A DNA stretch of 64,000 nucleotides from Methanosarcina barkeri str. Wiesmoor (GTDB taxonomy: Archaea > Halobacteriota > Methanosarcinia > Methanosarcinales > Methanosarcinaceae): the NCBI RefSeq assembly GCF_000969985.1, contig NZ_CP009526.1:3534001-3598000 (forward strand), written 5' to 3'. The stretch's first letter is position 1. Every line of letters begins with the position of its first letter. Positions 8,178-50,494 of this stretch are shown here, in pieces. The position numbers were made by a program, and so were the translations under genes. The notes beneath the pieces were generated by a model, which saw only the letters and a program-made list of their open reading frames with translations, had not been told where the DNA came from and made no database searches.

Positions 8178-8249
8178 CTATTACTGGCTTCTAACTGTTT
8201 CTGTTCCCTAAAGTTTTGGTCCCAACTTTTCTTTGGTCCCAACCTTCTT

Positions 8250-8915
8250 TTCCCAGAGCTACTTTTGACCTGAACTACTTTTTCCGTTCATCAGAATTTA
8301 CTCTTGAAGACAAAATCACAGATAACATATCAGGAAATCAAATTTGTGTTGGCGCACTCCATTCTCCCCACTATCCATTAAATTACGGACCACTTTTTTG
8401 AACTCCTGTTCATATGTAACAAAGTCTTTATGGATAAGAGGAATTCAAAGCGCCTCAGACTGTGCATAAACCAGGTAAGGAATAATGTCATGGGAACCAC
8501 GCCTCTGAATTCCCCTGAAGTTCAGAAGATGGGAGACCTTCAAAAGGTGGGATACCTCAAAACCTTTCGAGAGTGCCCTATAACATGCGAGACAACCATC
8601 CTTTCCGCCGGTCCATGAAACAATCACATGACCTGTATATTTCTTGCTTTCATTGATATTGCTTTCATTGATATTGCTTTCATTGATATTGCTTTCATTG
8701 ATATTGCTTTCATTGATATTGCTTTCATTGATATTGCTTTCATTGATATTGCTTTCATTGATATTGCTTTCATTGATATTGCTTTCATTGATATTGCTCT
8801 TATCGATATTGTTTTCATCGATATGGCTTTTATCGTTCGTAGTTGAAGTTAGGAAAGCACGATTATCCGTGAGCGGAAACAAAGAGAATGAAGAGGAGTT
8901 ATAAAGATGACCCAT
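8250..8915 (-). pseudogene. Decayed diphthine-ammonia-ligase-like PP-loop ATPase with repeat expansion
   Basis: The open part (8445-8915) encodes a leader, a block of pentapeptide repeats, then VIVSWTGGKDGCLACYRALSKG, a PP-loop motif of the diphthine-ammonia ligase (DUF71) family. The frame continues to AQSEAL and stops at a TGA (8445-8447). Reading through that stop restores family-like sequence, IPLIHKDFVTYEQEFKKVV, so a sense codon (probably GGA, Gly) has become TGA. Further downstream (minus sense) the frame meets more stops and resemblance fades by about 8250. Intact family members are roughly 220-250 aa and begin just before the PP-loop. The pentapeptide block between the ATG and the PP-loop is not a family feature. 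I read it as a dead gene. Confidence 0.75.
8646..8840. repeat. 15-bp tandem repeat, ten perfect plus three degenerate copies
   Basis: The unit GCTTTCATTGATATT is repeated perfectly ten times (8646-8795), then in degenerate form (8796-8840). On the minus strand it encodes NINES pentapeptides inside the PP-loop pseudogene. Because the unit is a multiple of three and lacks stops, several frames stay open on both strands; the plus-strand frames rich in FIDIA or SLILL are artefacts of the repeat. Confidence 0.95.
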
Positions 8916-10282: not shown

Positions 10283-10436
10283 CTTACTAACTCTTCTTAC
10301 TAACTCTTCTTACTAACTCTTCTTACTAACTCTTCCTACTCTAACTCTTCTTACTAACTCTTCCTACTCTAACTCTTCTTACTAACTCTTCTTACTAACT
10401 CTTCTTACTAACTCTTCTTACTCTAACTCTTATTCT
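10283..10436. repeat. 13-bp tandem repeat array
   Basis: The unit TTACTAACTCTTC recurs about eleven times. A 15-bp variant (CTACTCTAACTCTTC) is interspersed. There are no spacers of unique sequence, so it is not a CRISPR array. It is pyrimidine-rich on the plus strand and non-coding. Confidence 0.9.
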
Positions 10437-14666: not shown

Positions 14667-17600
14667 TTATGTAATTTTTATATATTCTGTTTTTGTTACC
14701 GTGTTCTTGCCTTTAACATTCTTTACTGTCAAGTTAACAGTATATGTTCCTGCCTTGGAATACTTGTGAATCGGATTCTGGTGGAATGACTTTGATCCGT
14801 CTCCAAAATCCCACCTCCATTTAGCAGGTATTCCTGTGCTTGTGTCAGTAAAAGTAACCTTTAATGGTGCTTTTCCTGATGTTGGATTCGCAGAAAAGTT
14901 TGCAACCGGTTTTGTTATTACTTTTATATATTCTGTTTTTGTTACCGTGTTCTTGCCTTTAGCATTCTTTACCGTCAAGTTAACAGTATATGTTCCTGCC
15001 TTTGAATATTTATGAACCGGATTCTGAAGGAATGACTTTGATCCATCTCCAAAATCCCATCTCCATTTAGCAGGTATTCCTGTGCTTGTGTCAGTAAATT
15101 TAACCTTTAATGGCATTTTTCCTGAGGTTGGAGTTGCAGAAAAGTTTGCAACCGGTTTTGTTATCACTTTTATATATTCTGTTTTTGTTACCGTGTTCTT
15201 GCCTTTAGCATTCTTTACTGTCAAGTTAACAGTATATTCCCCTGCTTTTGAATACTTATGAATCGGATTCTGGAAGTATGACTTTGATCCATCTCCAAAG
15301 TTCCAGAACCAGGAAGTTGGAGAGCCAGTACTTGTATCAGTAAATTTAACCTTTAATGGTGTTTTTCCGGAAGTAGGCGAGGCTGTAAATGCAGCTACTG
15401 GCTTTGCTGAAGATTGGCTACCAACATTAATGTACCCAGTTTTTACCTCCGAATCGCTTCCATCCTCGTTGGAAACCGTAAGGTTGACAGTGTAGGTACC
15501 GGCTGCAGTGTAAGTATGAGCAGGGTTCTGCTCGGTAACGTTAGTACCATCTCCGAAGTCCCAGAGCCAGGAAGTAGGTGAACCAGTCGACTGATCCGTA
15601 AAGTTGACAATGAGAGGCACAGTACCGCTCGTTACATCAGCTATGAATGCAGCAACCGGTTCTGCAGGCGTAGATGGTTCGGATACTGTGATATAATCGG
15701 TCTTTACCTCGGAATCGGTCCCGTTTGCATTTGCAACCGTAAGGTTGACAGTGTAAGTACCGGCTGAAGTATATGTATACGAGGGGTTCTGCTCAGTTGA
15801 GTCTATAGTTCCGTCGTTATTAAAGTCCCATTCCCATGTATCCGGCGATCTGGTGGACAGGTCGGTGAAATTCACAATCATAGGTCCGATTCCCGATGTC
15901 ACGTCGGCCTCAAAGTCCGCCACCGGTGCCTCTGTCAGCGGGTAACAGGCGACGCCGTTCCACGTCGGTGTGGTGAAGCCGGTAGCGCTTTCGTAGTAGT
16001 ACGCCACTAAGTTGGTGCACCCAGATGCCCATCTGCTGCCCATCGTCGGAGCGTTGCCCATGAACGTCATGGATGTCAGGGCGGTACAGCTGCGGAACGC
16101 ACTGCTGCCGATGCTGGTGACATTGTTTCCTATGGTCACAGAGGTAAGATTGGTGCAGTCGCGGAACGCGCTACCACCAATGCTGGTGACGCTGTCCGGG
16201 ATGGCTATCAAGGTCAGGGCAGTGCAGCCATAGAACGCACTGCTGCCGATGCTGGTGACATTATTTCCTATAGTTACAGTTGTCAGTCCAGAGCAGTCGC
16301 TGAATGCAATGTCGCCGATTGTTGTGACGCTGTCCGGGATGGTTACAGTTGTCAGTGCAGAGCATTGGCGGAACGCACTGCTACTAATGCTGGTGACATT
16401 GTTTCCTATGGTAACCGATGTCAGGGAGGTGCAGCCATAAAACGCACTGCTGCCGATGCTGGTAACATTATTTCCTATAGGCACAGAGGTAAGATAGGTG
16501 CAGCCATAAAACGCACTGCTGCCGATGCTGGTAACATTATTTCCTATAGGCACAATTGTCAGTCCGGAGCAGTCGCGGAACGCACTGTCGCCGATTGTTG
16601 TGACGCTGTCCGGGATGGTTACCGAACCGGTCTTTCCTGATGGACATTGTATCAACGTTGTGATGTCCTTGTTGTACAAGACTCCATCGATGCTAGCGTA
16701 TATACTGTTGTCGTTATCGACATCGATCGCGGTCAGAGCAGAGCAACCAGAGAACGCAGAACTGTCTATGTTCGTAACCCCGCTGCCGATGGTCACAGTT
16801 GTCAGTCTGGAGCAGTCCTGGAACGCATAGTCGAGGATGGTTGTGACGCTGTCCGGGATGGTTACAGTTGTCAGGGCAGAGCATTGGCGGAACGCAGAAT
16901 TACCTATGCTGGTGACACCGCTACCGATGTTCACTGAGGTAATGGAGATGCAGCCCTGGAACGCACTGCTGCCAATTTTGGTGACGCTGTCCGGGATGGT
17001 CACAGAGGTCAGGGCAGCGCAGCCCTGGAACGCATAGCTGCCGATGCTGATGACATTATTTCCTATGGTCACAGAGGTAAGGGCGATGCAGTCGCAGAAC
17101 GCAGAATTGCCGATGCTGGTGACATTGTTTCCTATGTTCACCGAGGTAATGGAGATGCAGCCCTGGAATGCGCTGGTGCCGATTGTTGTGACGCTGTCCG
17201 GGATGGTCACAGAGGTCAGGGCAGTGCAGCCGTAGAAAGCGCTGTCGCCGATTGTTGTGACGCTGTCCGGGATGGTTACCGAACCGGTCTTTCCTGATGG
17301 ACATTGTATCAACGTTGTGATGTCCTTGTTGTACAAGACCCCGTCGATGCTAGCGTACATACTGTTGTCGTTATCGACATCGATCGCGGTCAGAGCAGAG
17401 CAATCAGAGAACACAGAATTGTCTATGCTCGTAACCCCACTTCCGATGGTCACTGTTGTTAGTCCGGAGCAGTCTGGGAACACATAGCTGCTGATGGTTG
17501 TGACGCTGTTCGGGATGGCTACAGAACCGGTCTTTCCTGACGGACATCGTATCAAAGTTGTGACGTCTTTGTTGTACAAGACTCCATCGATGCTAGTGTA

Positions 17601-20315
17601 CACACTGTTGTCGGCATCGACATCGATCGCGGTCAGAGCAGAGCAATCAGAGAACGCAAAACTGCTGCTGCTCGTAACCCCGCCGATGCTCGTAACCCCG
17701 CCTCCGATGGTAACTATTGTCAGTCCAGAGCAGCCGCAGAACGCAGAGCTACCGATGCTGGTGACGCTGTCCGGGATGGCTACAGTTGTCAGAGCAGAGC
17801 AGCTTCGGAACGCGCTGGTGCCGATGTTGATGACACCGTCCGGGATGGTCACTGTTGTCAGAGCGGAGCAACCTTGGAACGCGCTGGCACCGATATTAGT
17901 GACACCGCTACCGATTTTCACTGTGGTCACCGAAGGACAGTTATAGAACGCCCCGTCGCTAATTGCTGTGACACCGCTGCCAATGGCCAATGTGGTCAGA
18001 GCAGAGCAACTAGAGAACGCATACTTGCCAATACTGATAACGCTGTTCGGGATGGTCATAGCTGTCAGAGCGGAGCAGCTCATGAATGCATAATCGCCTA
18101 TGTTTGTGACGCTGTTCGGGATGGTCACTGTTGTCAGAGCGGAGCAACCCTGGAATGCGCTGGTGCCGATAGTAGTGACAGGCAGTCCCTCGATCTCCGC
18201 GGGTATGATGACAATACCATCTGACCCTATGTATTTAGTGATGGTGATAGAGCTGCCGTCACTGGTGTAGGTAAAATCACTGGCAGGAGAGGCCTGCTCT
18301 TTCACGATGATGTAGTCGCTCTTGACTTCGTCACCGCTTCCTGCAGGGTTGCTCACCGTCAGATTGACGGTGTATGTTCCCGCGGTCGTATATGTGTAGC
18401 TCGGATTCTGCATCGTACTGTCAATTGTACCGTCATTGTTGAAGTCCCACTGCCAGGAGGACGGCGAGTTCGTAGACAGGTCAGTGAACTGCACGCTGCT
18501 TCCTATTAAAGTAGTCACTGGGTCAGCTGAGAAATCAGCCATAGGTGGCAAATATTCCACTGAGATCAGATTGACCCTGGTGACAGTATCCGAAGCCGCC
18601 AGGTTAGAGGCGGTCATAGTCACTGTATAGTTACCAGCGGCATTATATGTCCAGGGGGGATTCTGCTCGTACGAGTCGATTATGCCATCGGACTCGAAGT
18701 CCCAGGCCCAGCTGACTGGTCTGTTGGTGGTAAGGTCAGTGAACTGCACGGTCAGCGGAGCGGAGCCGCTGGTCACATCAACGGAGAAATCGGCTACCGG
18801 TGAGTCCGGCAGGACGGGGACAATGTAATCGGCCTTGGTTTCGGTGTTCGATCCACCGGTGTTGGATACCGTCAATGAGACAGTGTATGTGCCGGGGGCC
18901 TCGTAGGTGAACGAGGGGTTCTGCTCAGTTGAGTCCACAATCCCATCGTTATCGAAATCCCAGGCATAGTCAAGTATTACACCAGTGCTCTCATCATGGA
19001 ACTGTACCGTAAGCGGTGCGGTTCCGGAGGTCACATCGGCAGTGAAGTTAGCCACTGGTGCACTAACCACACCAATGTTGATGACGCCAACCGCCTCCAG
19101 GTCTAATCCGCCTGAACCCCAGGTCACCCAGCCATCATAGATGGGGTTGCCCTGGGAGTCCTTGAAGTCCCCGCTGCCCGGAATATCCACTATTCGGACA
19201 TAGTTGATGGAGTTAAGGTCTACGCTCCCATTCAGCACTTCGGGTGCCTGCGCAAGGTTGCTCAGGTCAAAGGGTGTGCCCCAGGAATCACCATAAGCAT
19301 TGACATGCTTCCCTACCAGGTTGTATACATCGGTGGGGTCTATACTCCCATATCCGCCTACTTGTCCGGAAGTCAGGGATATCGAGGGGAAGCGCGCAAA
19401 GACGATGCCGTCAGTGGATACCTCCACATAAGCTAGCTCGGCGAATATGCTCTCCGTGCCTGAGACGATGAAACCGTTCTCAAAAACCGCCAGGTCCGGT
19501 CCTTCGCCGTTAGCGATGGGCAAGTCGAACCCGAGGGTTACGGATCCAGGTAGTTCGCCTGCATTTATCTGATCTTGATCTAGATCTCCCAGGCTGACAA
19601 TGTCAAAGTTATCGCCGGTCACCGGACCGAGGGCCTTGCTCGGATCGGAAAACGGTGGCCCGATGCTCTGGTTAGCTGGAGAGTAGTCCACGACCGTGCT
19701 GGCCCAGGTTATAAATATAGGATTCACATTGCCGCAGTCGGTCTTGCCGTCACCGTTCGGACCTACGAAACCTGGTATCCCCGGATCGGGGGCTCCGGGA
19801 TTGGTGTTCTCCAGTGCGGTAGAATAAATATTGAGGATGGTCCCGTTGACGGTCACAGTGTCATCGCCTGTGGTATTTACCGTCCATGCAAATTCCTCCT
19901 CACTGGCAGATTCACCGGCAACATAGCTTGGTCCGTAGTCATAGGTACCGGATACCGTTTCGTCGGGCACTGTGACACTGTAAGTTATGGTGTCAGTGAC
20001 TCCGGTGAGGTTGACTGTGCCGTAAAAATCCAGGAATGTATAATCTTCCTCGGAAGTGTTCCAGATGTAACGTCCACTGTCAACTTCAGTAAGATTCCAG
20101 TCTGCAGGAAGGGCTTCATGTATTACGATGGAATCCTCGTCAGTATTGAAGGAAACTGTAAGGGTTACATTGTAGGTATTTCCGTCAGATACTTCTGAGG
20201 GAGTAATCGTTCTTGTTATTGTTGCTTCACCGGTAGCAACAGCTGGCATGGCCAGCATTGCTATGGAAAGTAAAAGCATGACTGTTGTCAGAACAAAAAA
20301 CCTTTTTTTTTGCAT
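14667..20315 (-). CDS. Giant secreted surface protein A: BspA-type LRR and PKD domains
   Basis: The 1882-aa product has a signal peptide (MQKKRFFVLTTVMLLLSIAM, cleavage near AVATG). Residues about 30-155 are a beta-rich Thr/Asp domain. Residues 155-415 form a module with PNGDGKTDCGNVNP, KALGP and ELAYVEVSTDGIVFARFP, like bacterial surface modules. Three PKD domains (about 415-670, WDFDNDG and YTY-x-TV patterns) precede roughly thirty BspA-type leucine-rich repeats (about 690-1450; consensus IGSSAFYGCTALTSVTIPDSV) broken by three DVDNDNSxYxSIDGVLYNKD inserts. Five PKD domains (about 1460-1882) end in KTEYIKIT. There is no C-terminal membrane anchor or sorting motif. The LRR DNA is visibly GC-richer than the PKD tails. 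Probably S-layer associated, binding or adhesive; the ligand is unknown. Confidence 0.88.
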   Translation of the reverse strand: MQKKRFFVLTTVMLLLSIAMLAMPAVATGEATITRTITPSEVSDGNTYNVTLTVSFNTDEDSIVIHEALPADWNLTEVDSGRYIWNTSEEDYTFLDFYGTVNLTGVTDTITYSVTVPDETVSGTYDYGPSYVAGESASEEEFAWTVNTTGDDTVTVNGTILNIYSTALENTNPGAPDPGIPGFVGPNGDGKTDCGNVNPIFITWASTVVDYSPANQSIGPPFSDPSKALGPVTGDNFDIVSLGDLDQDQINAGELPGSVTLGFDLPIANGEGPDLAVFENGFIVSGTESIFAELAYVEVSTDGIVFARFPSISLTSGQVGGYGSIDPTDVYNLVGKHVNAYGDSWGTPFDLSNLAQAPEVLNGSVDLNSINYVRIVDIPGSGDFKDSQGNPIYDGWVTWGSGGLDLEAVGVINIGVVSAPVANFTADVTSGTAPLTVQFHDESTGVILDYAWDFDNDGIVDSTEQNPSFTYEAPGTYTVSLTVSNTGGSNTETKADYIVPVLPDSPVADFSVDVTSGSAPLTVQFTDLTTNRPVSWAWDFESDGIIDSYEQNPPWTYNAAGNYTVTMTASNLAASDTVTRVNLISVEYLPPMADFSADPVTTLIGSSVQFTDLSTNSPSSWQWDFNNDGTIDSTMQNPSYTYTTAGTYTVNLTVSNPAGSGDEVKSDYIIVKEQASPASDFTYTSDGSSITITKYIGSDGIVIIPAEIEGLPVTTIGTSAFQGCSALTTVTIPNSVTNIGDYAFMSCSALTAMTIPNSVISIGKYAFSSCSALTTLAIGSGVTAISDGAFYNCPSVTTVKIGSGVTNIGASAFQGCSALTTVTIPDGVINIGTSAFRSCSALTTVAIPDSVTSIGSSAFCGCSGLTIVTIGGGVTSIGGVTSSSSFAFSDCSALTAIDVDADNSVYTSIDGVLYNKDVTTLIRCPSGKTGSVAIPNSVTTISSYVFPDCSGLTTVTIGSGVTSIDNSVFSDCSALTAIDVDNDNSMYASIDGVLYNKDITTLIQCPSGKTGSVTIPDSVTTIGDSAFYGCTALTSVTIPDSVTTIGTSAFQGCISITSVNIGNNVTSIGNSAFCDCIALTSVTIGNNVISIGSYAFQGCAALTSVTIPDSVTKIGSSAFQGCISITSVNIGSGVTSIGNSAFRQCSALTTVTIPDSVTTILDYAFQDCSRLTTVTIGSGVTNIDSSAFSGCSALTAIDVDNDNSIYASIDGVLYNKDITTLIQCPSGKTGSVTIPDSVTTIGDSAFRDCSGLTIVPIGNNVTSIGSSAFYGCTYLTSVPIGNNVTSIGSSAFYGCTSLTSVTIGNNVTSISSSAFRQCSALTTVTIPDSVTTIGDIAFSDCSGLTTVTIGNNVTSIGSSAFYGCTALTLIAIPDSVTSIGGSAFRDCTNLTSVTIGNNVTSIGSSAFRSCTALTSMTFMGNAPTMGSRWASGCTNLVAYYYESATGFTTPTWNGVACYPLTEAPVADFEADVTSGIGPMIVNFTDLSTRSPDTWEWDFNNDGTIDSTEQNPSYTYTSAGTYTVNLTVANANGTDSEVKTDYITVSEPSTPAEPVAAFIADVTSGTVPLIVNFTDQSTGSPTSWLWDFGDGTNVTEQNPAHTYTAAGTYTVNLTVSNEDGSDSEVKTGYINVGSQSSAKPVAAFTASPTSGKTPLKVKFTDTSTGSPTSWFWNFGDGSKSYFQNPIHKYSKAGEYTVNLTVKNAKGKNTVTKTEYIKVITKPVANFSATPTSGKMPLKVKFTDTSTGIPAKWRWDFGDGSKSFLQNPVHKYSKAGTYTVNLTVKNAKGKNTVTKTEYIKVITKPVANFSANPTSGKAPLKVTFTDTSTGIPAKWRWDFGDGSKSFHQNPIHKYSKAGTYTVNLTVKNVKGKNTVTKTEYIKIT

Positions 20316-21875: not shown

Positions 21876-24800
21876 TTATGTAATTTTTATATATTCTGTT
21901 TTTGTTACCGTGTTACGTCCTGCTGCATTCTTTACTGTTAAGTTAACCGTATATGTTCCTGCCTTTGAATACTTGTGAATCGGATTCTGGTGGAATGAAT
22001 CTGATCCATCTCCAAAGTCCCAGCTCCATTTAGCAGGTATTCCTGTACTTGTGTCAGTAAATTTAACCTTTAATGGTGCTTTTCCTGATGTAACACTGCT
22101 GTTGAAGTTTGCAACCGGTTTTGTAATCACTTTTATATATTCTGTTTTTGTTACCGTGTTTTTGCCTTTAGCATTCTTTACTGTCAAGTTAACAGTATAT
22201 GTTCCTGCTTTTGAATATTTGTGAACCGGATTCTGAAGGAATGACTTTGCTCCGTCTCCAAAGTCCCATCTCCATTTAGCAGGGATTCCTGTGCTTGTGT
22301 CAGTAAAAGTAACCTTTAATGGTGCTTTTCCTGAGGTTGGACTCGCAGAAAAGTTTGCCACAGGTTTTGTAATCACTTTTATATATTCTGTTTTTGTTAC
22401 CGTGTTCTTGCCTTTAGCATTCTTTACTGTCAAGTTAACAGTATATATTCCTGCCTTTGAATACTTGTGAACAGGATTCTGTAGGAATGACTTTGACCCG
22501 TCTCCAAATTTCCAGAACCAGGAAGTTGGAGAGCCAGTGCTTGTGTCAGTAAATTTAACCTTTAATGGCGTTTTTCCTGAAGTAGGCGACGCAGTAAATG
22601 CAGCTACCGGCTTTGCTGAAGATTGGCTACCAACATTAATGTACCCAGTCTTCACCTCTGAATCACTCCCTTTTGCATTTGTAACCGTAAGGTTGACAGT
22701 GTAGGTACCGGTTGCATTATAGGTATGCGAAGGGTTCTGCTCAGTTGAGTCCACAGTTCCGTCGTTATTAAAGTCCCACGAATAGGACGAAACGGTGCCT
22801 GTGGACTGGTCGGTGAAATTGACTGTCAATGGCGCATTACCTGATGTTATGTCTGCAGAGAAGTCAGCAACAGGCGAAGAGAGAGAGTCCTTGAAGGCAT
22901 AGACTTTCTGATCCGCTCCGATACTGAAAAGCATACCGTCCGAAAGTGCTGGGGTAGATCCTGCATGTGGAGTGTGCCAGGCTACTTCTCCCGTAAAGGC
23001 GTCCAGAGCATAGAGGTCATTGTAACCGAAGTATCCGTTGCCTTCGGTTCCGACGTAGACAAGCCCGTCAGCTACCGCAACAGAACATGTCCAGCCTCCT
23101 ATTCCCCCGTTCTCTCCTGTCAGGGAAGGGGTTTCCCAGACTTTTTCTCCCGTACTTGCGTTGAAGCAGTAGGTCTGCACATTGGAAAAACCAGAGCAGC
23201 CTCCACAAACATAGACATTTCCGTAGGCAAATGCAGGAGTTGAGTCTGTCCTTTCGATATTTTGCTGCCAGATTATGCTCCCGTCAACAGCGTCCAGGGC
23301 AAGAAGGTCTCCGTCTCCGTAGAAGTTGTAGGTTGTCAGGTAGAGGACCCCGTCTTTATAAGCAGGGGATCCACAGAAATTCTGTTCTATATTATTAATG
23401 TGCCATACCTGATCTCCTGTTACTGCGTCCACGCAGTAAGCATGGCCTGCATAAGAAGTCCCATATCCCCAGCTTGTCAGGTAGAACTTTCCGTCCGCGT
23501 ATGCAGGGACGGACTGAGCATCTCCGACGACTTCAAAACTCCAGAGCAAGTATCCGGTGTATTCGTCAAGACAGTAATAATGGCTTCCATCCCAATCGCT
23601 AAAGATTACCATACCATCCGCAATAGCAGGTCCACTATTAACCGCACCCTGACTTCCCACAGTATCATTGAAACACCAGATTTTTTCTCCGGTTTCTGCG
23701 TCGTAACAGCCAAGTTCGGGGCCAGTGGCCGTAAAGACCATGCCGTCATCATAAGCAGGGGAAGCCCACGAACCGTATACGGCTTTCGGAATGCTGACGT
23801 TCCACAGAATATCTCCACTAAATTCGTCCAAGGCTACTAACTGGGGAATATCCTCCGTGCTCTCTTCCATTCCTGCGGTCCCGCATATCACAAAGACTTT
23901 TCCTCCGGCCGCAACAGGGGAGGAACTGCTGATTGCATCAATGTCCTCACTTATCCACTCGGTCTGATTGGTCTTGGGCCCGCTTTCTGAGTAGCCAAGG
24001 TGGTCAACCTTTCCATGGAACTGGTACCAGGAATTCTCAGGAATGGACTCGTTTTTCTGCTCTTCAACATAATTTGAGTAGGGAAGGACCAGAGGGTACT
24101 TATCAGTTCCTGCATCAGCAGTGTAAGCCGTATCCCCTATACCGTCCCCATTTGAGTCGCTTCCTGCGTAGTCATCGTAGTAATTACCTATATACCCTGT
24201 CAGTTTTGTTCCATTCCAGACATATTCTACTGGTTCGGAGCTCTGGAAGAATGAGTCTGACCCTCCGGATATATGGTCGTTTGAACCTCCCATTTTCTTT
24301 CCATTGTTGTTGATGAAGGTGTTCTTATAGATCCGGTTGTCTCCTGTGCTATCAAGAACAGCTGCAAAGTCCCAGCAGTTGGAAATATTATTCTGCCGGA
24401 GAGTGTTTTCAGTTCCCTGTAACCATACCCCTTCGGCGCAGTCATCTATAAGGTTGTCTTCTATCAGTACGTTCTTTGCATTGACGTTAATTGCAAAGCA
24501 CATCTCTTCGGTCCCTGTAATTTCAAAGCCGCTGAACTCAACGCCGTCAGCACTTATGGTTACGCCTGAAGAGTCTATGAAACCCGAAGCGTTCAGGACA
24601 GGGTCCTTGATGCCTTTTAGAGTCAGATTCTTGTCGATGGTCAGGACTTCGTGATACTCCCCGGGATATACCTTGATGATGTCTCCGGAATCGGCTGAAT
24701 TAATAGCTGCCTGGATAGACTCCCCTCTTTTAATCGGCCAGGTAGTCGGAACTTTGACTGCGTAAATGTAGTCTTCGGCAACTTTTTTATCCGTCCCGTG

Positions 24801-29857: not shown

Positions 29858-30623
29858 ATTTTCGTCTCTCCTATTTTGTCATAGGGGTTCAGTCTACCTG
29901 CGCGGAAATGTCTGGACTCCCGAAGATTTGAAAAGCGGTTTGACCGGACAGGAAGTTGTTTTTGGTTTAGGGTTTTCGGACCTTTGAAGAAAGCAGGAAG
30001 CGACTGGATTTTGTTTTTCTGTTTTTTATTCTCACGGATTTTTGTCTAGGATCAGCCGGTTTTGAAGTATTTGGCTTCAAAATCCCGGTGATCAAACAGA
30101 AGATAACAGCATTCAAAATCCGGAAAAATACTGATTTGAAAACACAGCCCCAATTAAAAATCTAGCATACTCTTTAGGTAAAATTTATATGTTTCTCATC
30201 AAAATTTTTGCTGAAGAATCTACCTGACTTTCCTGATTCCAGGAAAGAATTCAGGCTAGAGCTGTGTAAAGAAAAATAAGTGCTCAGTTTCTTATCTTTT
30301 TGAAGACCTCCTGTATTTTCATAGGGTTGTCAGTTGGTCTGAGCGGAAGAGTCTGTCTGCATTTCGAATTCTATATTGCAATCAGATAAGGTTTCGGACC
30401 TTTTTGAAGTGTCAGAACAACTGGAGTTTTAAAAGTTTATCTGGAACATATGCTGCGGAAATTTTGATATTTCCTGAAATGTATCTGATTGAACTAATTG
30501 TATCTGATTGAACTAATTGTATCTGATTGAACTAATTGTATCTGATTGAACTAATTGTATCTGATTGAACTAATTGATTATTTTGGAGTTCTATAGATAA
30601 AAATCTTTGGCTAATTATTCTTA
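29858..30623 (-). promoter_or_regulatory. Long leader of the C-B unit
   Basis: No gene is seen here. The block repeats the leader plan of A, D, E and F: promoter-like element (30598-30623), CCGAAA motif near 30395, distal CCCTATGAAAATACAGGAGG copy near 30310, CCGAAAA motif near 29970, and a proximal copy next to the ATG. It contains the 19-bp tandem repeat at 30481-30575. Confidence 0.5.
30481..30575. repeat. 19-bp tandem repeat, five copies
   Basis: GTATCTGATTGAACTAATT is repeated five times without mismatch. A single related unit (ATCTGATCAAACTAATT) occurs at the matching place in the leader of gene D (about 35325) and ATTAGATACAATTAAAC in those of A and E, so expansion happened only here. 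Confidence 0.92.
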
Positions 30624-36096: not shown

Positions 36097-39000
36097 TTAT
36101 GTAATTTTTATATATTCTGTTTTTGTTACCGTGTTCTTGCCTTTAACATTCTTTACTGTCAAGTTAACAGTATATGTTCCTGCCTTGGAATACTTGTGAA
36201 TCGGATTCTGGTGGAATGACTTTGATCCGTCTCCAAAATCCCACCTCCATTTAGCAGGTATTCCTGTGCTTGTGTCAGTAAAAGTAACCTTTAATGGTGC
36301 TTTTCCTGATGTTGGATTCGCAGAAAAGTTTGCAACCGGTTTTGTTATTACTTTTATATATTCTGTTTTTGTTACCGTGTTCTTGCCTTTAGCATTCTTT
36401 ACTGTCAAGTTAACAGTATATGTTCCTGCCTTTGAATATTTATGAATTGGATTTTGTTGGAATGACTTTGCTCCGTCTCCAAAGTCCCATCTCCATTTAG
36501 CAGGTATTCCTGTGCTTGTATCAGTAAATTTAACCTTTAATGGTGCTTTTCCCGATGTAACACTGCTGTTGAAGTTTGCAACCGGTTTTGTTATCACGTT
36601 TATATATTCTGTTTTTGTTACCGTGTTCTTGCCTTTAGCATTCTTTACTGTCAAGTTAACAGTGTATATTCCTGCTTTTGAATACTTGTGAATCGGATTC
36701 TGTAGGAATGACTTTGCTCCATCTCCAAAATTCCAGAACCAGGAAGTTGGGGAGCCAGTGCTTGTATCAGTAAAGGCAACGTTTAATGGTGTTTTTCCTG
36801 AAGTAGGAGACGCAGTAAATGCAGCTACTGGCTTTGCTGAAGATTGACTGGATACCTTAATATACCCAGTTTTTATATCAGAATCATTTCCATCCTCGTT
36901 GGAAACCGTAAGGTTGACAGTGTAGGTACCGGTTGCAGTGTAAGTGTGGACTGGATTCTGTTCGGTAGCGTTAGTACCATCCCCGAAGTCCCATATCCAG
37001 GATGTAGGTGAGCCAGTCGACTGATCCATAAAGTTGACAATGAGAGGCACAGTACCACTGGTCACATCAGCTATGAATGCAGCAACGGGTTCAGGTTCTA
37101 CAGGCGTAGAAGATACAGTGATATAGTTAGTCTTTACAGTGCTATTGCTGCCAATTGAGTTCTTGACAGTGAGATTTACGGTATAGTTACCTGCCTCATT
37201 ATAGGTATGCGAGGGTTTCTGTTCGGTTGAGTTTGCTCCGTCCCCGAATTCCCAGATCCAGGAGGTCGGTGTGCCTGTGGACTGATCGGTAAAGTTAACC
37301 GTAAGCGGAGCAGTTCCGGCAGTTACATCAGCAGTGAAAGCAGCAACCGGTTCTGCAGGCGTAGATGGTTCGGATACTGTGATATAATCGGTCTTTACCT
37401 CGGAATCGGTCCCGTTTGCATTTGCAACCGTAAGGTTGACAGTGTAAGTACCGACTGAAGTATATGTATACGAAGGGTTCTGCTCAGTTGAATCCGCAGT
37501 TCCGTCGTTATCAAAGTCCCATGCCCAGGTATCCGGAGAGCTGGTGGACAGATCAGTGAATTTCACAATCATAGGTCCGATTCCTGATGTCACATCGGCC
37601 TCGAAATCAGCCACTGGTGCCGCTGTTAACGGGTAACAGGCGACGCTGTTCCACGTCGGTGTGGTGAAGCCGGTAGCGCCTTCGTAGTAGTACGCCGTCA
37701 GGGAAGTGCTTCCAGATGCCCAGCTACTGCTAACTGAAGAAGGAGCATTGCCCGTGAACATCACCGAGGTAAGGGCGTTGCAGTCGCGGAACGCACTGCT
37801 GCCGATGGTGGCGATTTTGTTCGGTATGGTCACCGAGGTCAGGCCGGTTTTGCGGAACGCATTGCTACCTATCTCGGTGACATTGTCCGGTATGGTTACT
37901 GATGTCAGGGCGCTGCAGCCGTAGAACATATAAGAGGGGATCTCATCAAGGCCAATCCCTATGGTCACCGAGGTCAGGCCGGTGCAGCCGTAGAACAGCC
38001 TTGATTCGACGTTAGTGACACTGTCAGGTATAGTTACTGAGGTCAGTGCATTGCAGTCACGGAACGCATAGCTGTCGATGGTTGTGACGCTGTCAGGTAT
38101 GGTCACCGAAGCCAGGTTACTGCACTGGTAGAACGCGCTGTCGCCGATGGTTGTGACGCTGTCAGGAATGACCACCGAGATCAGGGCGCTGCAGCCATAG
38201 AACATTCTATCGTCAATTTTAGTGACATTATTTCCTATGGTCATCGAGGTCAGGCCGGTGCAGCCGTTGAACGCATTGTTGCCGATGGTAGTCACGCTGT
38301 TCGGTATGGTCACCGAGGTCAGGCCGGTGCAGCCGTAGAAAGCACTGGAGCCGATGGTTGTGACGCTGTCCGGTATGGTTACCGAGGTGATGTTGGTATT
38401 GCTCTTGAACACGCTGTCGCTGATAGCGGTGACCGGCAGGTTCCCTATCGTGCTCGGAATGACGACATCGCCGCCCGGTCCGGAGTAGCCGGTTATGGTC
38501 ACCGAGGTACCGTCGGAGAGATAGGTAAAGTTATCGACCGGTTCGGCTACGGTGATATAGGCCGTCTTAACTTCACTGTCACTGCCCCAGGGGTTGCTGA
38601 CATTCAGTTTGATCGAGTAGGTACCCGGCGTATCGTAGGTATAACTGGGGTTCCTTGCAGTGCTGTCTACAGTACTGTCGTTGTCGAAGTACCAGTCCAG
38701 CGCGTTCGCGCCCACGCCCGTATAGGTAAACTTTACCGTGAGCGGTGCGCTGCCATAGACGATGTTCGAGGTGAACTCGGCGGTCGCGGCGGTGAGTGCT
38801 GGGTAGCACGGGACTTCGTTCCACTCAGGGGTTGTGAAGTTAGTAGCGCCTTCGGAGTAATATGCCACTAGGTTGGTGCCCGATGCCCAATTGCTGCCGA
38901 CCGTCGTCGGCGCATTGCCGTTGAACATCATGACAGTAAGGTTGGTGCAGCCGTAGAATGCACTGGAACCGATAGTGGTAACGCTGTTCGGTATGGTCAC

Positions 39001-41625
39001 TGAGATCAGGCCTGTGCAGCCGTAGAACGCACTGGAGCCGATAGTGGTAACGCTGTTCGGTATGGTCACCGAGGCCAGGCCTGTGCAGCCATAGAATGCA
39101 CTGGAACCGATAGTGGTGACGCTGTCCGGCATAGTCACCGAGATCAGGTTGGTGCAGCCGTAGAACGCACTGGCGTCGATAGTGGTGACACTGTCCGGTA
39201 TGGTCACAGAGGTCAGGGAGGTGAGGGCCTTGCACGCGCTGGCACCGATAGTGGTCACCGGCAGGCCATCGATCTCACCGGGTATTGTCACGTCGCTGTC
39301 CGGTCCGGAGTAGCCGGTTACGGTCACCGAGGTGCCGTCGCTGGTGTAAGCCCAACCGTCAGCGTGAGCCTCAGTCACGGTAATGTAGTTTGTTCTGAGC
39401 TTACTGTCGCTGCCCCATGGGTTGTTGACATACAGAGTGGCCGAGTAGGTACCCGGTGTATCGTAGGTATAACTGGGGTTCCTCGCAGTGCTGTCCACAG
39501 TAGCGTCGTCGTCGAAGTACCAGGACAAAGCGTTCGCACCCACACCCGAATAGGTGAACTGTACCGTGAGCGGTGCACTGCCGAAAATGGTGTTGGTCGA
39601 AAAGTCAGCGGTTGGGGAGCCTATTGGATAACACGGCTTGCCAGCCCAACTCGGTGTGGTGAAGCCGGTAGCGTTCTCACAGTAGTACACCACCAGATTG
39701 GGACAATTATAGTTCCAGTTGCCACTAGCACTCGGTGCGTCGCCCTCGGCCTCAAACACCATGGCGTCCAGGGAGGGGCAGTCACGGATCGAGTAGCTGG
39801 TAATAGAAGAAAGCCTGTGGCCAACAGTTATCGTTTCTAAGGAGGGGCAGTTCCGGATATTGTTCGTTGAAATAGATGGTACTCCGCCCGTGTAGATCGA
39901 GATAAGGTCCTCGCAGTTCTGGAACTGGTAGAGTCCAATGTCGGTGACGCTGTCAGGAATGACCACCGAGGTCAATGGTGTTCCTTGAAACACCCTGTCG
40001 GCTATTTTTGTGACAGGAAGACCATCTATCTCATCGGGTATGATCAGATCGCCAGCCGGTCCGGTGTAGCCGGTGATTGTTATCGAGCTGCTACTGTTAG
40101 TATATGTTAAATAATCTTCCAGAGGCTTCGCTTCGATCACGGTGATGTAGTCGGTCTTGAGTTCCTGAACGCTGCCTGTCGACTTGTTAATCGTCAGATT
40201 GACGGAGTAGTTACCTGCGGCACTGTATGTATATATAGGGTTCCGTTCCGTGCTGTCCACGTTTCCGTCGTTGTCAAAGTCCCACTGCCATGCGGTCGCC
40301 CCGACGCTATAGTCGGTGAACTGAACCGTCAGTGGAGAGGAGCCGTAGGTAGTGTTGGCAGCAAAGCATATTGCAGGATCATCAAGAGCGAACAGGTAAC
40401 CCGCATCATTGCCATAGTAGACCATGCCGTCGGAGATCGCCGCACCCTGCAGGCTATACTGCTTCATACTGCCCGGCGGGAAGAACTCGAACCGCACGAT
40501 GGGTTCGGTGTTGCCCGGCATGTCTTTGAGGCAGTACATACCGCAAGAGGCATCGTTTGTTGTGAAATAGATGTAAATCTCCCCGTCGCCATCATCATAG
40601 TAGGTCGAGATGGCAGGAGATGATTGCACCTGGGCACCTACAGCATAGGACCAGATTATTTGCAGGGAATCGGCGTCAAGGCAGTACAGGGAACCACCGC
40701 AGCCCACATACACACGATCGTTGTACACGGCAGGGGTGGAAGTGGAGCTACCCGACATCGTCCCGGAGCCCTTTACGCTCTTGACGAAGGTACCAGTGCC
40801 GGAGTCGAATCCTACATAGTAGCAGGAGGAACCGGCAGCGAAGTACAGCCTCCCGGTTGATTGGTCATAGCTCATGGAGGAACGGATATTGCCGGTGCCG
40901 GAGCTGAAGATGGTACCGGTGCTCACATCTTCCATAACCGTCCCGGTGTACTTGTTGACTGAGACTAGGTGGCCGTTATCGCCACCGTAGACGAGGTAGT
41001 CGCCTACCACGCAAGCGCCGGCCCAGTAGTATCCCGCATTGCTGGTGCAGGCACGCTCCCATACGAACGAGCCGTCAGTGGCATTCACGCAGTAGTATGA
41101 ACCGACGCCGCTGGAAAACCAGGTTCCGAAGTAGATGTTACCGGAGTCGTAGATGATAGGCGTGTTCACCTGAGCTTTCTCGCCGCCCAGTCCAGTGGAG
41201 TTGATCCAGACCTCTGCGCCGGTGGAGATGTTGAGTGCGGCGATGACGCCGTTTCTGGTGCCGACGAAGATCTTGCCGTCGGCGACCACAGGCGTGGCCA
41301 GAACGAACCCGCCAGCTACAGTGTGATTCCATATTTGATCCCCTGTGGTCTTGTTGAAGGCGAAAGCTACGCCATTAGCGACGGTGTAAACGACATCGTC
41401 GACGACCACCGGCGTTGTATCGATCCCGCTCATCCCACTAGATTTTGTAAGGACAGCGAAGGCATAACTGCCATTATTGCTTATCGGGCCAGCCTCATCA
41501 GTTATTCCGGAGTTGTAATTGTCTTTCTGGAACTGGGCCCAGTCGGACCCCAGTGCCGGCTGAGCAGCCGCCACCAGGAGCAATGTTATACAAATTAGAA
41601 ATATTTTCAATGTATGTTTGTTCAT
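36097..41625 (-). CDS. Giant secreted surface protein E: PQQ propeller, three BspA-LRR blocks and nine PKD domains
   Basis: The 1842-aa product has a signal peptide (MNKHTLKIFLICITLLLVAA, cleavage near ALGS). Order: PQQ-type propeller (about 28-412, opening SDWAQFQKDNYNSG); PKD (413-495); LRR block 1 (498-667, diverged); PKD (667-750); LRR block 2 (755-940); PKD (945-1030); LRR block 3 (1030-1335, about a dozen repeats); six PKD (1335-1842) ending KTEYIKIT. Each LRR block closes with a cysteine-containing cap (ATGFTTPTW, then ACYPL). The two PKD domains between LRR blocks have WYFD where the others have WDFD. The propeller-LRR-PKD order joins the propeller of gene C and the LRR/PKD part of gene A. 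No anchor is seen; the PKD tail is nearly identical in DNA to that of A. Confidence 0.88.
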   Translation of the reverse strand: MNKHTLKIFLICITLLLVAAAQPALGSDWAQFQKDNYNSGITDEAGPISNNGSYAFAVLTKSSGMSGIDTTPVVVDDVVYTVANGVAFAFNKTTGDQIWNHTVAGGFVLATPVVADGKIFVGTRNGVIAALNISTGAEVWINSTGLGGEKAQVNTPIIYDSGNIYFGTWFSSGVGSYYCVNATDGSFVWERACTSNAGYYWAGACVVGDYLVYGGDNGHLVSVNKYTGTVMEDVSTGTIFSSGTGNIRSSMSYDQSTGRLYFAAGSSCYYVGFDSGTGTFVKSVKGSGTMSGSSTSTPAVYNDRVYVGCGGSLYCLDADSLQIIWSYAVGAQVQSSPAISTYYDDGDGEIYIYFTTNDASCGMYCLKDMPGNTEPIVRFEFFPPGSMKQYSLQGAAISDGMVYYGNDAGYLFALDDPAICFAANTTYGSSPLTVQFTDYSVGATAWQWDFDNDGNVDSTERNPIYTYSAAGNYSVNLTINKSTGSVQELKTDYITVIEAKPLEDYLTYTNSSSSITITGYTGPAGDLIIPDEIDGLPVTKIADRVFQGTPLTSVVIPDSVTDIGLYQFQNCEDLISIYTGGVPSISTNNIRNCPSLETITVGHRLSSITSYSIRDCPSLDAMVFEAEGDAPSASGNWNYNCPNLVVYYCENATGFTTPSWAGKPCYPIGSPTADFSTNTIFGSAPLTVQFTYSGVGANALSWYFDDDATVDSTARNPSYTYDTPGTYSATLYVNNPWGSDSKLRTNYITVTEAHADGWAYTSDGTSVTVTGYSGPDSDVTIPGEIDGLPVTTIGASACKALTSLTSVTIPDSVTTIDASAFYGCTNLISVTMPDSVTTIGSSAFYGCTGLASVTIPNSVTTIGSSAFYGCTGLISVTIPNSVTTIGSSAFYGCTNLTVMMFNGNAPTTVGSNWASGTNLVAYYSEGATNFTTPEWNEVPCYPALTAATAEFTSNIVYGSAPLTVKFTYTGVGANALDWYFDNDSTVDSTARNPSYTYDTPGTYSIKLNVSNPWGSDSEVKTAYITVAEPVDNFTYLSDGTSVTITGYSGPGGDVVIPSTIGNLPVTAISDSVFKSNTNITSVTIPDSVTTIGSSAFYGCTGLTSVTIPNSVTTIGNNAFNGCTGLTSMTIGNNVTKIDDRMFYGCSALISVVIPDSVTTIGDSAFYQCSNLASVTIPDSVTTIDSYAFRDCNALTSVTIPDSVTNVESRLFYGCTGLTSVTIGIGLDEIPSYMFYGCSALTSVTIPDNVTEIGSNAFRKTGLTSVTIPNKIATIGSSAFRDCNALTSVMFTGNAPSSVSSSWASGSTSLTAYYYEGATGFTTPTWNSVACYPLTAAPVADFEADVTSGIGPMIVKFTDLSTSSPDTWAWDFDNDGTADSTEQNPSYTYTSVGTYTVNLTVANANGTDSEVKTDYITVSEPSTPAEPVAAFTADVTAGTAPLTVNFTDQSTGTPTSWIWEFGDGANSTEQKPSHTYNEAGNYTVNLTVKNSIGSNSTVKTNYITVSSTPVEPEPVAAFIADVTSGTVPLIVNFMDQSTGSPTSWIWDFGDGTNATEQNPVHTYTATGTYTVNLTVSNEDGNDSDIKTGYIKVSSQSSAKPVAAFTASPTSGKTPLNVAFTDTSTGSPTSWFWNFGDGAKSFLQNPIHKYSKAGIYTVNLTVKNAKGKNTVTKTEYINVITKPVANFNSSVTSGKAPLKVKFTDTSTGIPAKWRWDFGDGAKSFQQNPIHKYSKAGTYTVNLTVKNAKGKNTVTKTEYIKVITKPVANFSANPTSGKAPLKVTFTDTSTGIPAKWRWDFGDGSKSFHQNPIHKYSKAGTYTVNLTVKNVKGKNTVTKTEYIKIT

Positions 41626-42854: not shown

Positions 42855-43061
42855 CAGGAGTTTTTCATCGATCTTGGATATGTTATATCAGCAGAGACAG
42901 CAACAGAGCAAATATTGGTATTTTCACATATATTAAAAAATACTACTGAATATTGTGTAAAAAAAATAAGTTGGATAAAAAATCTATGTAGGTACAAATT
43001 TTTAATGCTTAATGGCACTGCTTTTAGTTTTCCTCCATAAGTTCTTGGACACACAATATTC

Positions 43062-43143
43062 TTATGTACACAATATTCTTATGTACACAATATTCTTATG
43101 TACACAATATTCTTATGTACACAATATTCTTATGTACACAATA
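43062..43143. repeat. 17-bp tandem repeat, about five copies
   Basis: ACACAATATTCTTATGT is repeated about five times, ending in ACACAATATTGAACTG. The corresponding site at 21.61 kb has about one and a half copies. Confidence 0.9.
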
Positions 43144-43200
43144 TTGAACTGTTCTTGGTAGGGTTGTCTTTTCCCCTGTAAAAAACCTGAACTTTCATTC

Positions 43201-43386: not shown

Positions 43387-46300
43387 TTATGTAATTTTTA
43401 TATATTCTGTTTTTGTTACCGTGTTACGTCCTGCTGCATTCTTTACTGTTAAGTTAACTGTATATGTTCCTGCCTTTGAATACTTGTGAATCGGATTCTG
43501 GTGGAATGAATCTGATCCATCTCCAAAGTCCCATCTCCATTTAGCAGGTGTTCCTGTGCTTGTGTCAGTAAATTTAACCTTTAATGGTGCTTTTCCCGAT
43601 GTAACACTGCTGGTGAAGTTTGCAACCGGTTTTGTTATCACTTTTATATATTCTGTTTTTGTTACCGTATTGCTGCCTTTAGTATTCTTTACTGTTAAAT
43701 TAACAGTATATGTTCCTGCCTTTGAATACTTGTGAACCGGATTCTGTAGGAATGACTTTGATCCGTCTCCAAAGTCCCATCTCCATTTAGCAGGTGTCCC
43801 TGTGCTTGTGTCAGTAAATTTAACCGTTAATGGTGTTTTTCCTGATGTAACACTGCTGTTGAAGTTTGCCACAGGTTTTGTTATCACTTTTATATATTGT
43901 GTTTTTGTTACCGTGTTCTTGCCTTTAGCATTCTTTACTGTCAAGTTAACAGTATATATTCCTGCCTTTGAATACTTGTGAATCGGATTCTGTAGGAATG
44001 ACTTTGATCCATCTCCAAATTTCCAGAACCAGGAAGTTGGGGAGCCAGTGCTTGTATCAGTAAAGGCAACGTTTAATGGTGTTTTTCCTGAAGTAGGCGA
44101 CGCAGTAAATGCAGCTACTGGCTTTGCTGAAGATTGACTGGAGACCTTAATGTACCCAGCTTTTACCTCCGAATCGCTTCCCTCCTCGTTGGAAACCGTA
44201 AGGTTAACAGTGTAGGTACCAGCTGCCGTGTATTTGTGGACTGGATTCTGCTCTGTGCTGTCGATAGCTCCATCGTTGTCAAAATCCCAGTCCCAGGAAG
44301 TTATGCCTTCTCCAGTGGACTCATCAGTGAAGCTTACAGTCAGGGGAGCTTTTCCTGTACTCACATTCGAGCTGAATTTTGCTTCGAGGAGAGATCCTTG
44401 AGTTTCCTTGAAAGCGTATATTTTCCCGCTTCCAATGCTGAAGACCATTCCATCGGCAATTGCCGGGGAGCAACCGCAACCCTCGTAACTCCAGACCTGT
44501 GAGCCTGTTTCAGCATCAAATGCGTAGAGTGTTGAAGAGCCAGTAAAGAGTCCGGAAGCAGCCCCGCCAGTAAATACTTTTCCATCCGCAACAGCTACAG
44601 AACAGGCCCAGTCTCCGATATTGTCAGAAGCGTTTGTTTCCCATAGGCTCTGTCCATCGGAAGCATCAAGGCAATATGTCTTTAGTTCACTGTATCCTGA
44701 AGTTCCTGTCGACAAATATACTTTCCCTTCTAATACTGTTGGTGTCGAATCTGAAGGAGATACATCTGACCTTCCCCAGAGAACACTTCCGTCTGTCAGG
44801 TCAAGCTTGTAAATTCCGTCCGAGGTACCAAAACCGAATACAGTAACGTACAGCCCCTCATCAGTAATTGTTACGGAGCCGCATGGGCCGTTTTCAAACC
44901 CGTCATTTTTCCAGATCGTTTCTCCTGTTTCGGCATTTACACAGTAGACTGCGTTTGTGGAACTCCAGCACGTCAGGTACACTTTGCCGTCTTTGTAAGC
45001 AGGAGTGCCCTGTGCATAGGCTCCGTCTACTTTGAAAGTCCACAGGAGCCCTCCGTTACTTTCGTCAAGGCAGTAGTAATTTCCTCCGTCCCAGTCACTT
45101 ACAAAGACTTTTCCATCTCCAATTGAAGGTCCACCGTCGCAGGAAGCAAGGTCTGTTGGGTTATGGAAAGTCCAGATGACTTCTCCGGTTGAAGCGTTTA
45201 TGCAGTATGTCTGTTTGCCTGCAGATGCGAAAACTTTTCCTGAATCATATGCAGGAGAAGACCATGAACCCCATTCGGGAGCCTCAACCGTCACATTCCA
45301 TACTTCTTGTCCCGTATTCTCGTCAAAAGCCACAAGCTGTCCGTATGAAGTTAGAGGGTTGCCATATTCGTCAGTTGGTCCGTTGCAGAGGCAAAAGACT
45401 TTTCCTTCAGCAATAGCCACGCTTGAACTCGGAACAAGGGAATACGTATCATTAAGAGGTTCGGCAGTCCAGGCAAGGTTAGCGCTGTCCGGAGCAGTGG
45501 AGCTTGTATACCCGCTGTGCTGGGCATCCTTGTGGAACTGGTACCAGCCCTCAGAGGTTACCGGCTGTTCCTGTTCCTCCTCAGTGACTTTGATCATGTC
45601 CTGGATTTCCTTGGCATCACTACCGTTTCCATTGCTGACGGTCAGTTTGACAGTGTAACTGCCTGTGTCATTGTAAATATAGCTAGGATTCTGCTCCTTG
45701 CTGTCGACCGTTCCATCGTTGTCAAAATCCCATGCCCAGGATGTCGGAGCACCTGTAGATTTGTCTGTGAACTGAACTTCAAGAGGTGAGTTTCCGGAAA
45801 GTGGGGATCCGCTGAAACTAGCACTCGGTGCCGTGGACGCTTGCGAATCTTTAGTAGTTAACCCAAAAACGTATTTTTTATCCGCTCCAAAATATATCCA
45901 GCCGTCCGATATTGCAACTCCCTGAAGAGAATACTGTGTCTTTTTTGCATCTTTGTAACTCCATACAAGTTCCGGGCTTGTGGAACCTGCTAAGTCCTTT
46001 AGGCAGTACACACCGCCTGTAGCGTTGTTTACTGTGAAGTATATATATACCTCCCCGTCCCCGTCATCATAGTAGGTTGAGAGGGCTGGGGAAGATTGGA
46101 CTACATTTGCTGGATAATTCCAGATCACACCACTCAGGTCGGAGTCAAGGCAGTAAACTCCTTTTCCTGCACTGTACATTTGAGCACCTGTACCTATGTA
46201 GATTCTTCCTTTATAGTAGGTAGGTGTGGTGGTGGAGTACCAAACTTTTTCGCTGTGTTTATCGTTGGTATTAAATGTTCCGTCTGCTGGGTTAAACCCA

Positions 46301-50427: not shown

Positions 50428-50494
<67 letters not shown>

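Follow-up and report, generated by a model that had tools for sequence, protein, structure and literature searches.

The window, the whole 64,000-nucleotide stretch that was analyzed, is part of contig 2 (4,874,815 bases) of the Methanosarcina barkeri str. Wiesmoor genome (G000), which is 99.95% complete. The ORF list and its translation place an open reading frame (ORF) of 156 codons on the minus strand at 8445–8915, terminated by a TGA at 8445–8447. Three neighbors in the window were scanned. They are a nucleoside 2-deoxyribosyltransferase-like protein, an acetyltransferase, and one protein without a match. The features of the locus, in the direction of the gene, are as follows.

8853–8915, minus strand: first 21 codons of the ORF, starting with the ATG at 8915; this apparent N-terminus is conserved flanking DNA and no part of the ancestral gene (comparison with L004 and L005)
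8852–8853, no strand: 5′ deletion junction; about 150 bp gone relative to L004, including the start codon (BLAST and alignment)
8362–8852, minus strand: ancestral coding remnant, with leader, array, PP-loop, and the downstream part to the 3′ junction (DNA comparison with the syntenic orthologues L004, L005, and L008; translation)
8796–8840, minus strand: three imperfect 15-bp units, TNDKS, HIDEN, and NIDKS, preceding the perfect array (read from the sequence)
8646–8795, minus strand: ten perfect 15-bp units, AATATCAATGAAAGC, encoding NINES (repeat scan, translation)
8598–8618, minus strand: PP-loop motif SWTGGKD, 3′ of the array (translation; PF01902 and TIGR03679 matches; coordinates counted from the sequence)
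about 8540–8557, minus strand: 18-bp in-frame tandem duplication, found in none of the nine genus orthologues (repeat scan and alignment)
8445–8447, minus strand: in-frame TGA; Gly in all nine genus orthologues (translation, orthologue alignment)
8357–8362, no strand: 3′ deletion junction; about 560 bp (versus L005) to 650 bp (versus L004) gone (BLAST bounds; finer ends by eye)

A 56-residue piece of the protein was searched against 30 genomes of the genus. Close orthologues, with 75–86% identity over the 56 residues, are present in nine genomes besides the window remnant (G003, G008, G010, G012, G013, G021, G022, G024, and G029). Eight of these nine genes have no internal stop codon, and the one in G008 has a single TAG. 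Synteny is unbroken on both sides of the remnant relative to G003 (L004) and G029 (L005), as seen by BLAST and alignment, and relative to G013 (L008), as seen by BLAST. The DNA that is missing relative to these three falls within the gene and its near flanks. The 3′ deletion measures at most 662 bp (L004 1755–2416) or 566 bp (L005 1755–2320) from the BLAST ends, and about 644 and 563 bp, respectively, by eye. It removes L004 coding nucleotides 1755–2154, which is around 133 of 255 codons, together with the stop codon and some spacer. Past the TGA, 27 family-like codons continue in the same frame (8444–8364), and the resemblance then ends.

The ORF scores 20.6 bits against Pfam PF01902, under the cut-off of 23.2. 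The score rises to 26.9 bits on read-through of the TGA and covers only profile positions 2–75 of 219, so a full-length PF01902 domain over the cut-off is lacking in the window. The remnant scores 21.1 against TIGR03679 (cut-off 197.3). A match to the Pfam pentapeptide-repeat family PF13599 (21.6 bits against a cut-off of 38) was rejected and is attributed to the five-residue periodicity.

With intact syntenic orthologues and several disabling lesions, the window copy is very probably a decayed, non-functional gene for a PP-loop ATP pyrophosphatase of the DUF71-B12 type, whose leader minisatellite was recently expanded. We infer the absence of function from the lesions. The sequence-only reading had already described a PP-loop pseudogene with a TGA in place of a probable Gly codon and family-like sequence after it. 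This is borne out, and more strongly than proposed, with the start codon and the C-terminal half deleted; that reading had not noticed either deletion, the loss of the start codon, or the 18-bp duplication. Recoding of the TGA was considered and rejected, because both deletions kill the gene regardless. To our knowledge, there is no TGA recoding in Methanosarcina. That the TGA is a sequencing or assembly error is extremely improbable: a single codon differs, as such an error would have it, but this would leave the duplication and the two deletions, whose flanks are conserved, unexplained. It is also highly unlikely that the 156-codon ORF encodes a live, shortened protein consisting of the NINES repeat and the PP-loop half. 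The reading frame is uninterrupted over 8445–8915, and the dN/dS of the remnant against its relatives is below 1. However, the ORF starts at an ATG (8915) that is part of the flank and that neither L004 nor L005 has, the C-terminal region bearing the conserved GENGEFH motif is lost, and the PF01902 score is under the cut-off.

The window and the nine genus orthologues all have the PP-loop of the DUF71/COG2102 family (PF01902), SxGGKD, in the form SWTGGKD. The two intact orthologues that were scanned, L004 and L012, match PF01902 over its full length (175.3 and 175.7 bits). Against TIGR03679 (Dph6), two intact orthologues score 143.7 and 141.8 and do not reach the equivalog cut-off of 197.3. 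According to excerpts of PMC3541065, Dph6 has the motif EGGE/D-x-E, and the DUF71-B12 subgroup has ENGEF/YH in its place. All eight aligned intact orthologues have GENGEFH there; the region is deleted in the window. More distant relatives have GE[NDYF]GE[FY]H where the motif region was located. On these profile scores and motifs, the orthologues are of the DUF71-B12 type and not diphthine-ammonia ligases, the identity assumed in the sequence-only reading. Calling every methanogen PF01902 remnant a diphthine-ammonia ligase is a mistake that this case corrects. A role of DUF71-B12 in salvage of B12 or pseudo-B12 is given as a prediction only in the same excerpts. A neighborhood of B12 transport or salvage genes, a mark of DUF71-B12, finds weak support: among 10 chosen neighboring ORFs from 7 loci, there was one FecCD permease (L096, Methanolinea). 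Two neighbors were scanned at Methanosarcina loci; one is an ABC-2 transporter and the other a tRNA synthetase, and neither is a B12 gene.

The other PF01902 gene of the genome (C2:2308222–2308872) scores 298.2 against TIGR03679 and has the motif GEGGEYE. By these marks, it is the true Dph6 of the genome and belongs to a different subfamily. The suggestion that the decayed copy was redundant is therefore not supported, as the intact Dph6 is of another subfamily and the lost copy was no spare Dph6. A family search of the window genome finds the remnant and the Dph6 gene only, with no second DUF71-B12 gene.

Losses were also seen elsewhere in the genus. We fetched 29 loci around the neighboring nucleoside 2-deoxyribosyltransferase-like gene and compared 8 of them. 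The gene is absent at the syntenic place in G004, G025, and G027 (L122, L123, and L124). A putative scar, made up of the last approximately 8 codons and the stop, gave local alignment scores against L005 of 38 in G025 and 34 in G004 (shuffle maxima 22 and 23). Against L004, the scores were 36 in G025 (shuffle maximum 27) and 23 in G004 (maximum 24, which is not above chance). In G027, the best alignments start beyond the stop. The scar, weaker in G004 than in G025, moderately favors a deletion over an originally empty site. In G010 and G012, the gene is absent at the syntenic locus and present on another contig. L057 (G023:C18:5463–6013) is a frameshifted remnant of the same gene with multiple stops. 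From these comparisons, the gene has a patchy distribution in the genus and has decayed more than once.

CbiZ was considered as an explanation for the loss and rejected. Of the 30 genus genomes, 17 have its domain, PF01955: the window genome, the 9 genomes that hold a full-length orthologue, and 7 of the 19 without any trace of the gene. It is absent in G023, which has a remnant (counts uncorrected for relatedness and completeness). The co-presence of CbiZ and DUF71-B12 in Methanosarcina is unlike the exclusion in bacteria that excerpts of PMC3541065 report.

The ten perfect NINES units ahead of the PP-loop, pointed out in the sequence-only reading, are confirmed at 8646–8795. Tandem Repeats Finder (TRF) gave the array a score of 332, with 12.5 copies and 95% matches. 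The self-match run at period 15 is 140 bases long, compared with at most 12 in five mononucleotide shuffles of the window (periods 10–30). A two-unit NINES pattern with up to 3 mismatches occurs in one of the 30 genus genomes, at this place only. It is absent from the 29 others because the units differ between species.

The leaders of the orthologues are hydrophilic, and they show a five-residue periodicity where they are long enough. Examples are DESEIDESEIDESEIDESKIDESKIDKGR in G003, NEKSKNEKSKNEKSK in G010, and DKGKVDKEKIDKGNLDEEDVDEEEVDEKKVDEEK in G008. The units of G003 and G029 are the 15-bp unit of the window with a few differences; in their sequence, the intact leaders differ from NINES. 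The spacing from the start codon to SWT is 17 residues in G012 and in G030 and G031 from a sister genus; 22 in G021 and G013 (from the ATG; 37 if the upstream GTG is used); 27 in G010, G022, G024, and L077; 32 in G029; 42 in G003; and 67 in G008. The equivalent spacing in the window is 82, as there are 78 residues to SWT from the residue that aligns with residue 5 of G003, against 38 in G003. All of these spacings fit 17+5n, with n = 0, 1, 2, 3, 5, and 10, and n = 13 in the window. This is the behavior of a variable-number tandem repeat (VNTR), and it is seen in L077 and in all but one of the 12 family loci L045–L056, which makes 12 of the 13 loci examined. The exception is a more divergent family member in G055 (228 bits), which has a spacing of 5 and no leader. 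Beyond the family, where start codons are uncertain, no periodic leader was found by eye. No report on the leader or the decay of this gene was found among the literature matches listed.

Judged from these alignments, the array is a minisatellite of the genus, and in intact genes it varies in steps of one or more full units without loss of frame. The window has the longest array of all the loci compared, and this array is of the same kind as the intact leaders. Since the intact leaders vary in copy number, no single distance between start codon and PP-loop can count as normal in this genus. The earlier view of an abnormal repeat explosion that pushed the PP-loop from its normal place is thus not upheld, given that intact orthologues have a variable in-frame pentapeptide leader there. 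The sequence-only reading had named an intact, expressed orthologue bearing this pentapeptide insertion as the finding that would refute its view. Such orthologues exist in kind, but they have fewer and different units, and they do not revive the window copy.

Two of the loci deserve separate mention. The contig of L077 (DNNJ01000042.1) is labeled as Clostridiales bacterium UBA10612. Its gene has a leader spacing of 27 and shares 87% identity with the G003 protein, and the contig is probably a mis-binned methanogen contig. L011 (G008:C1:2391104–2391796, minus strand) is a long-leader orthologue, otherwise complete, with a single in-frame TAG where the 8 aligned orthologues have Gln. In Methanosarcina, TAG can encode pyrrolysine. 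The L011 gene may be alive with pyrrolysine, or it may be freshly dead.

To date the expansion, we used the divergence of the remnant. The window branch has an estimated 0.109 synonymous substitutions per site (bootstrap 0.016–0.231). If the ten units had stood for the whole of this branch, around 16 changes would be expected (2 to 35 over the bootstrap interval), and none is observed. Ten identical units with zero changes therefore mean that the last expansion was recent, barring homogenization. Pairwise dN/dS is 0.29 between the remnant and L004, 0.21 between the remnant and L005, and 0.14 between L004 and L005. The window branch has a dN/dS of 0.31 (bootstrap 0.07–2.0), against 0.20 and 0.10 for the two intact branches (joint bootstrap median 0.14, 0.04–0.37). 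The value of the window branch lies above those of the intact branches in 83% of bootstraps, which fits a recent death but is not significant. The low dN/dS of the remnant counts against a decayed gene to this extent: either the death of the gene was recent, or freedom from constraint is undemonstrated. As to whether the repeat grew before or after the gene died, a question raised in the sequence-only reading, the array type is older than the death and the final expansion is recent; with one genome per species, dN/dS dating does not settle the order of death and last expansion.

The lack of substitutions, together with an array that no other locus matches in length or in its ten identical units, could also be taken to mean that the pentapeptide expansion was a pathology, which displaced the PP-loop and either brought about the death of a redundant diphthine-ammonia ligase or came after it. 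This account overlaps with the one we prefer, because both hold that the gene is dead. We consider it quite unlikely. Intact leader arrays reach n = 5 in G003, and n = 10 is found in G008, which is complete but for one TAG. The subfamily is DUF71-B12 and not Dph6, and the deletions are enough by themselves to kill the gene. To take a repeat in a dead gene as the cause or the result of its death, although intact relatives carry the repeat, would be a mistake.

In the explanation that we prefer, a 15-bp minisatellite in the intact gene encodes a low-complexity leader ahead of the PP-loop. The minisatellite gains and loses whole units, presumably by replication slippage. The frame survives such changes because 15 is a multiple of 3, and the variation in leader length is tolerated. 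In the window genome, which is close to G003 and G029, the gene was lost, with two deletions, one nonsense codon, and a small duplication, and the last expansion of the minisatellite was recent and led to ten identical units; we infer the order of these events. A bolder proposal is that the leader is a slippage-tuned disordered spacer in living Methanosarcina, and that the window holds an extreme allele which arose in the live gene before the deletion. This is rather unlikely. Overall, the locus combines ordinary gene decay with ordinary repeat slippage; the pseudogene is well explained, and its repeat is of a common kind. In a genus of archaea known for satellites, it offers a small, partly datable case of a minisatellite within coding sequence.

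Other repeats are present in the window. A second minisatellite-like repeat, of the GGGACCAAAGAAAA type, lies at 8215–8250 in the spacer downstream of the gene. It is also found in the spacers of L004 and L005, with more copies in L005 by eye. Further tandem arrays are at 10283–10431 (13 bp), 30480–30576 (19 bp), 43051–43145 (17 bp), and 50428–50494 (4 bp). Of these, the 19-bp (5.1 copies), 17-bp (5.6 copies), and 4-bp (16.8 copies) arrays are perfect. Repeats of 246 bp and 69 bp recur in the window (14676–15368, 21885–22584, 36106–36819, and 43396–44095; 16072–18180 and 37958–39255). In excerpts of PMC6749651, repeats of such sizes are mainly those of Methanosarcina surface-layer proteins.

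The array can be compared with the satellites described in the same excerpts. There, Methanosarcina is prominent among archaea, with 1908 satellites in nine genomes, mostly with short units. The density per Mb is 71.7–89 for M. barkeri and M. vacuolata and 7–60 for six other species. The window array shares with these the short unit, the tandem arrangement, and the occurrence of many per genome in the genus. It differs in that it lies inside a coding leader, has a unit of 15, and preserves the frame. With DUF71-B12, as described in the excerpts of PMC3541065, the intact orthologues share the PP-loop, the C-terminal GENGEFH (8 of 8), and a full-length PF01902 domain (2 of 2). In contrast, the window copy is without its C-terminal half, the neighbors scanned in Methanosarcina are not B12 genes, and the leader is a variable repeat. 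Common to Dph6 (TIGR03679) are the Pfam family, the PP-loop, and a weak match of the window remnant, whereas the two orthologues tested stay below the cut-off that the genome's own Dph6, with its 298.2 and GEGGEYE, exceeds. Related structures are those of the N-type ATP pyrophosphatase PF0828 (3RJZ, 3RK0, 3RK1) and of PH1257 (2D13), which match the intact G003 orthologue with E-values of 3.6e-30 and 1.2e-29. The match begins at G003 residue 39, past the leader, and at residue 7 of the chain.
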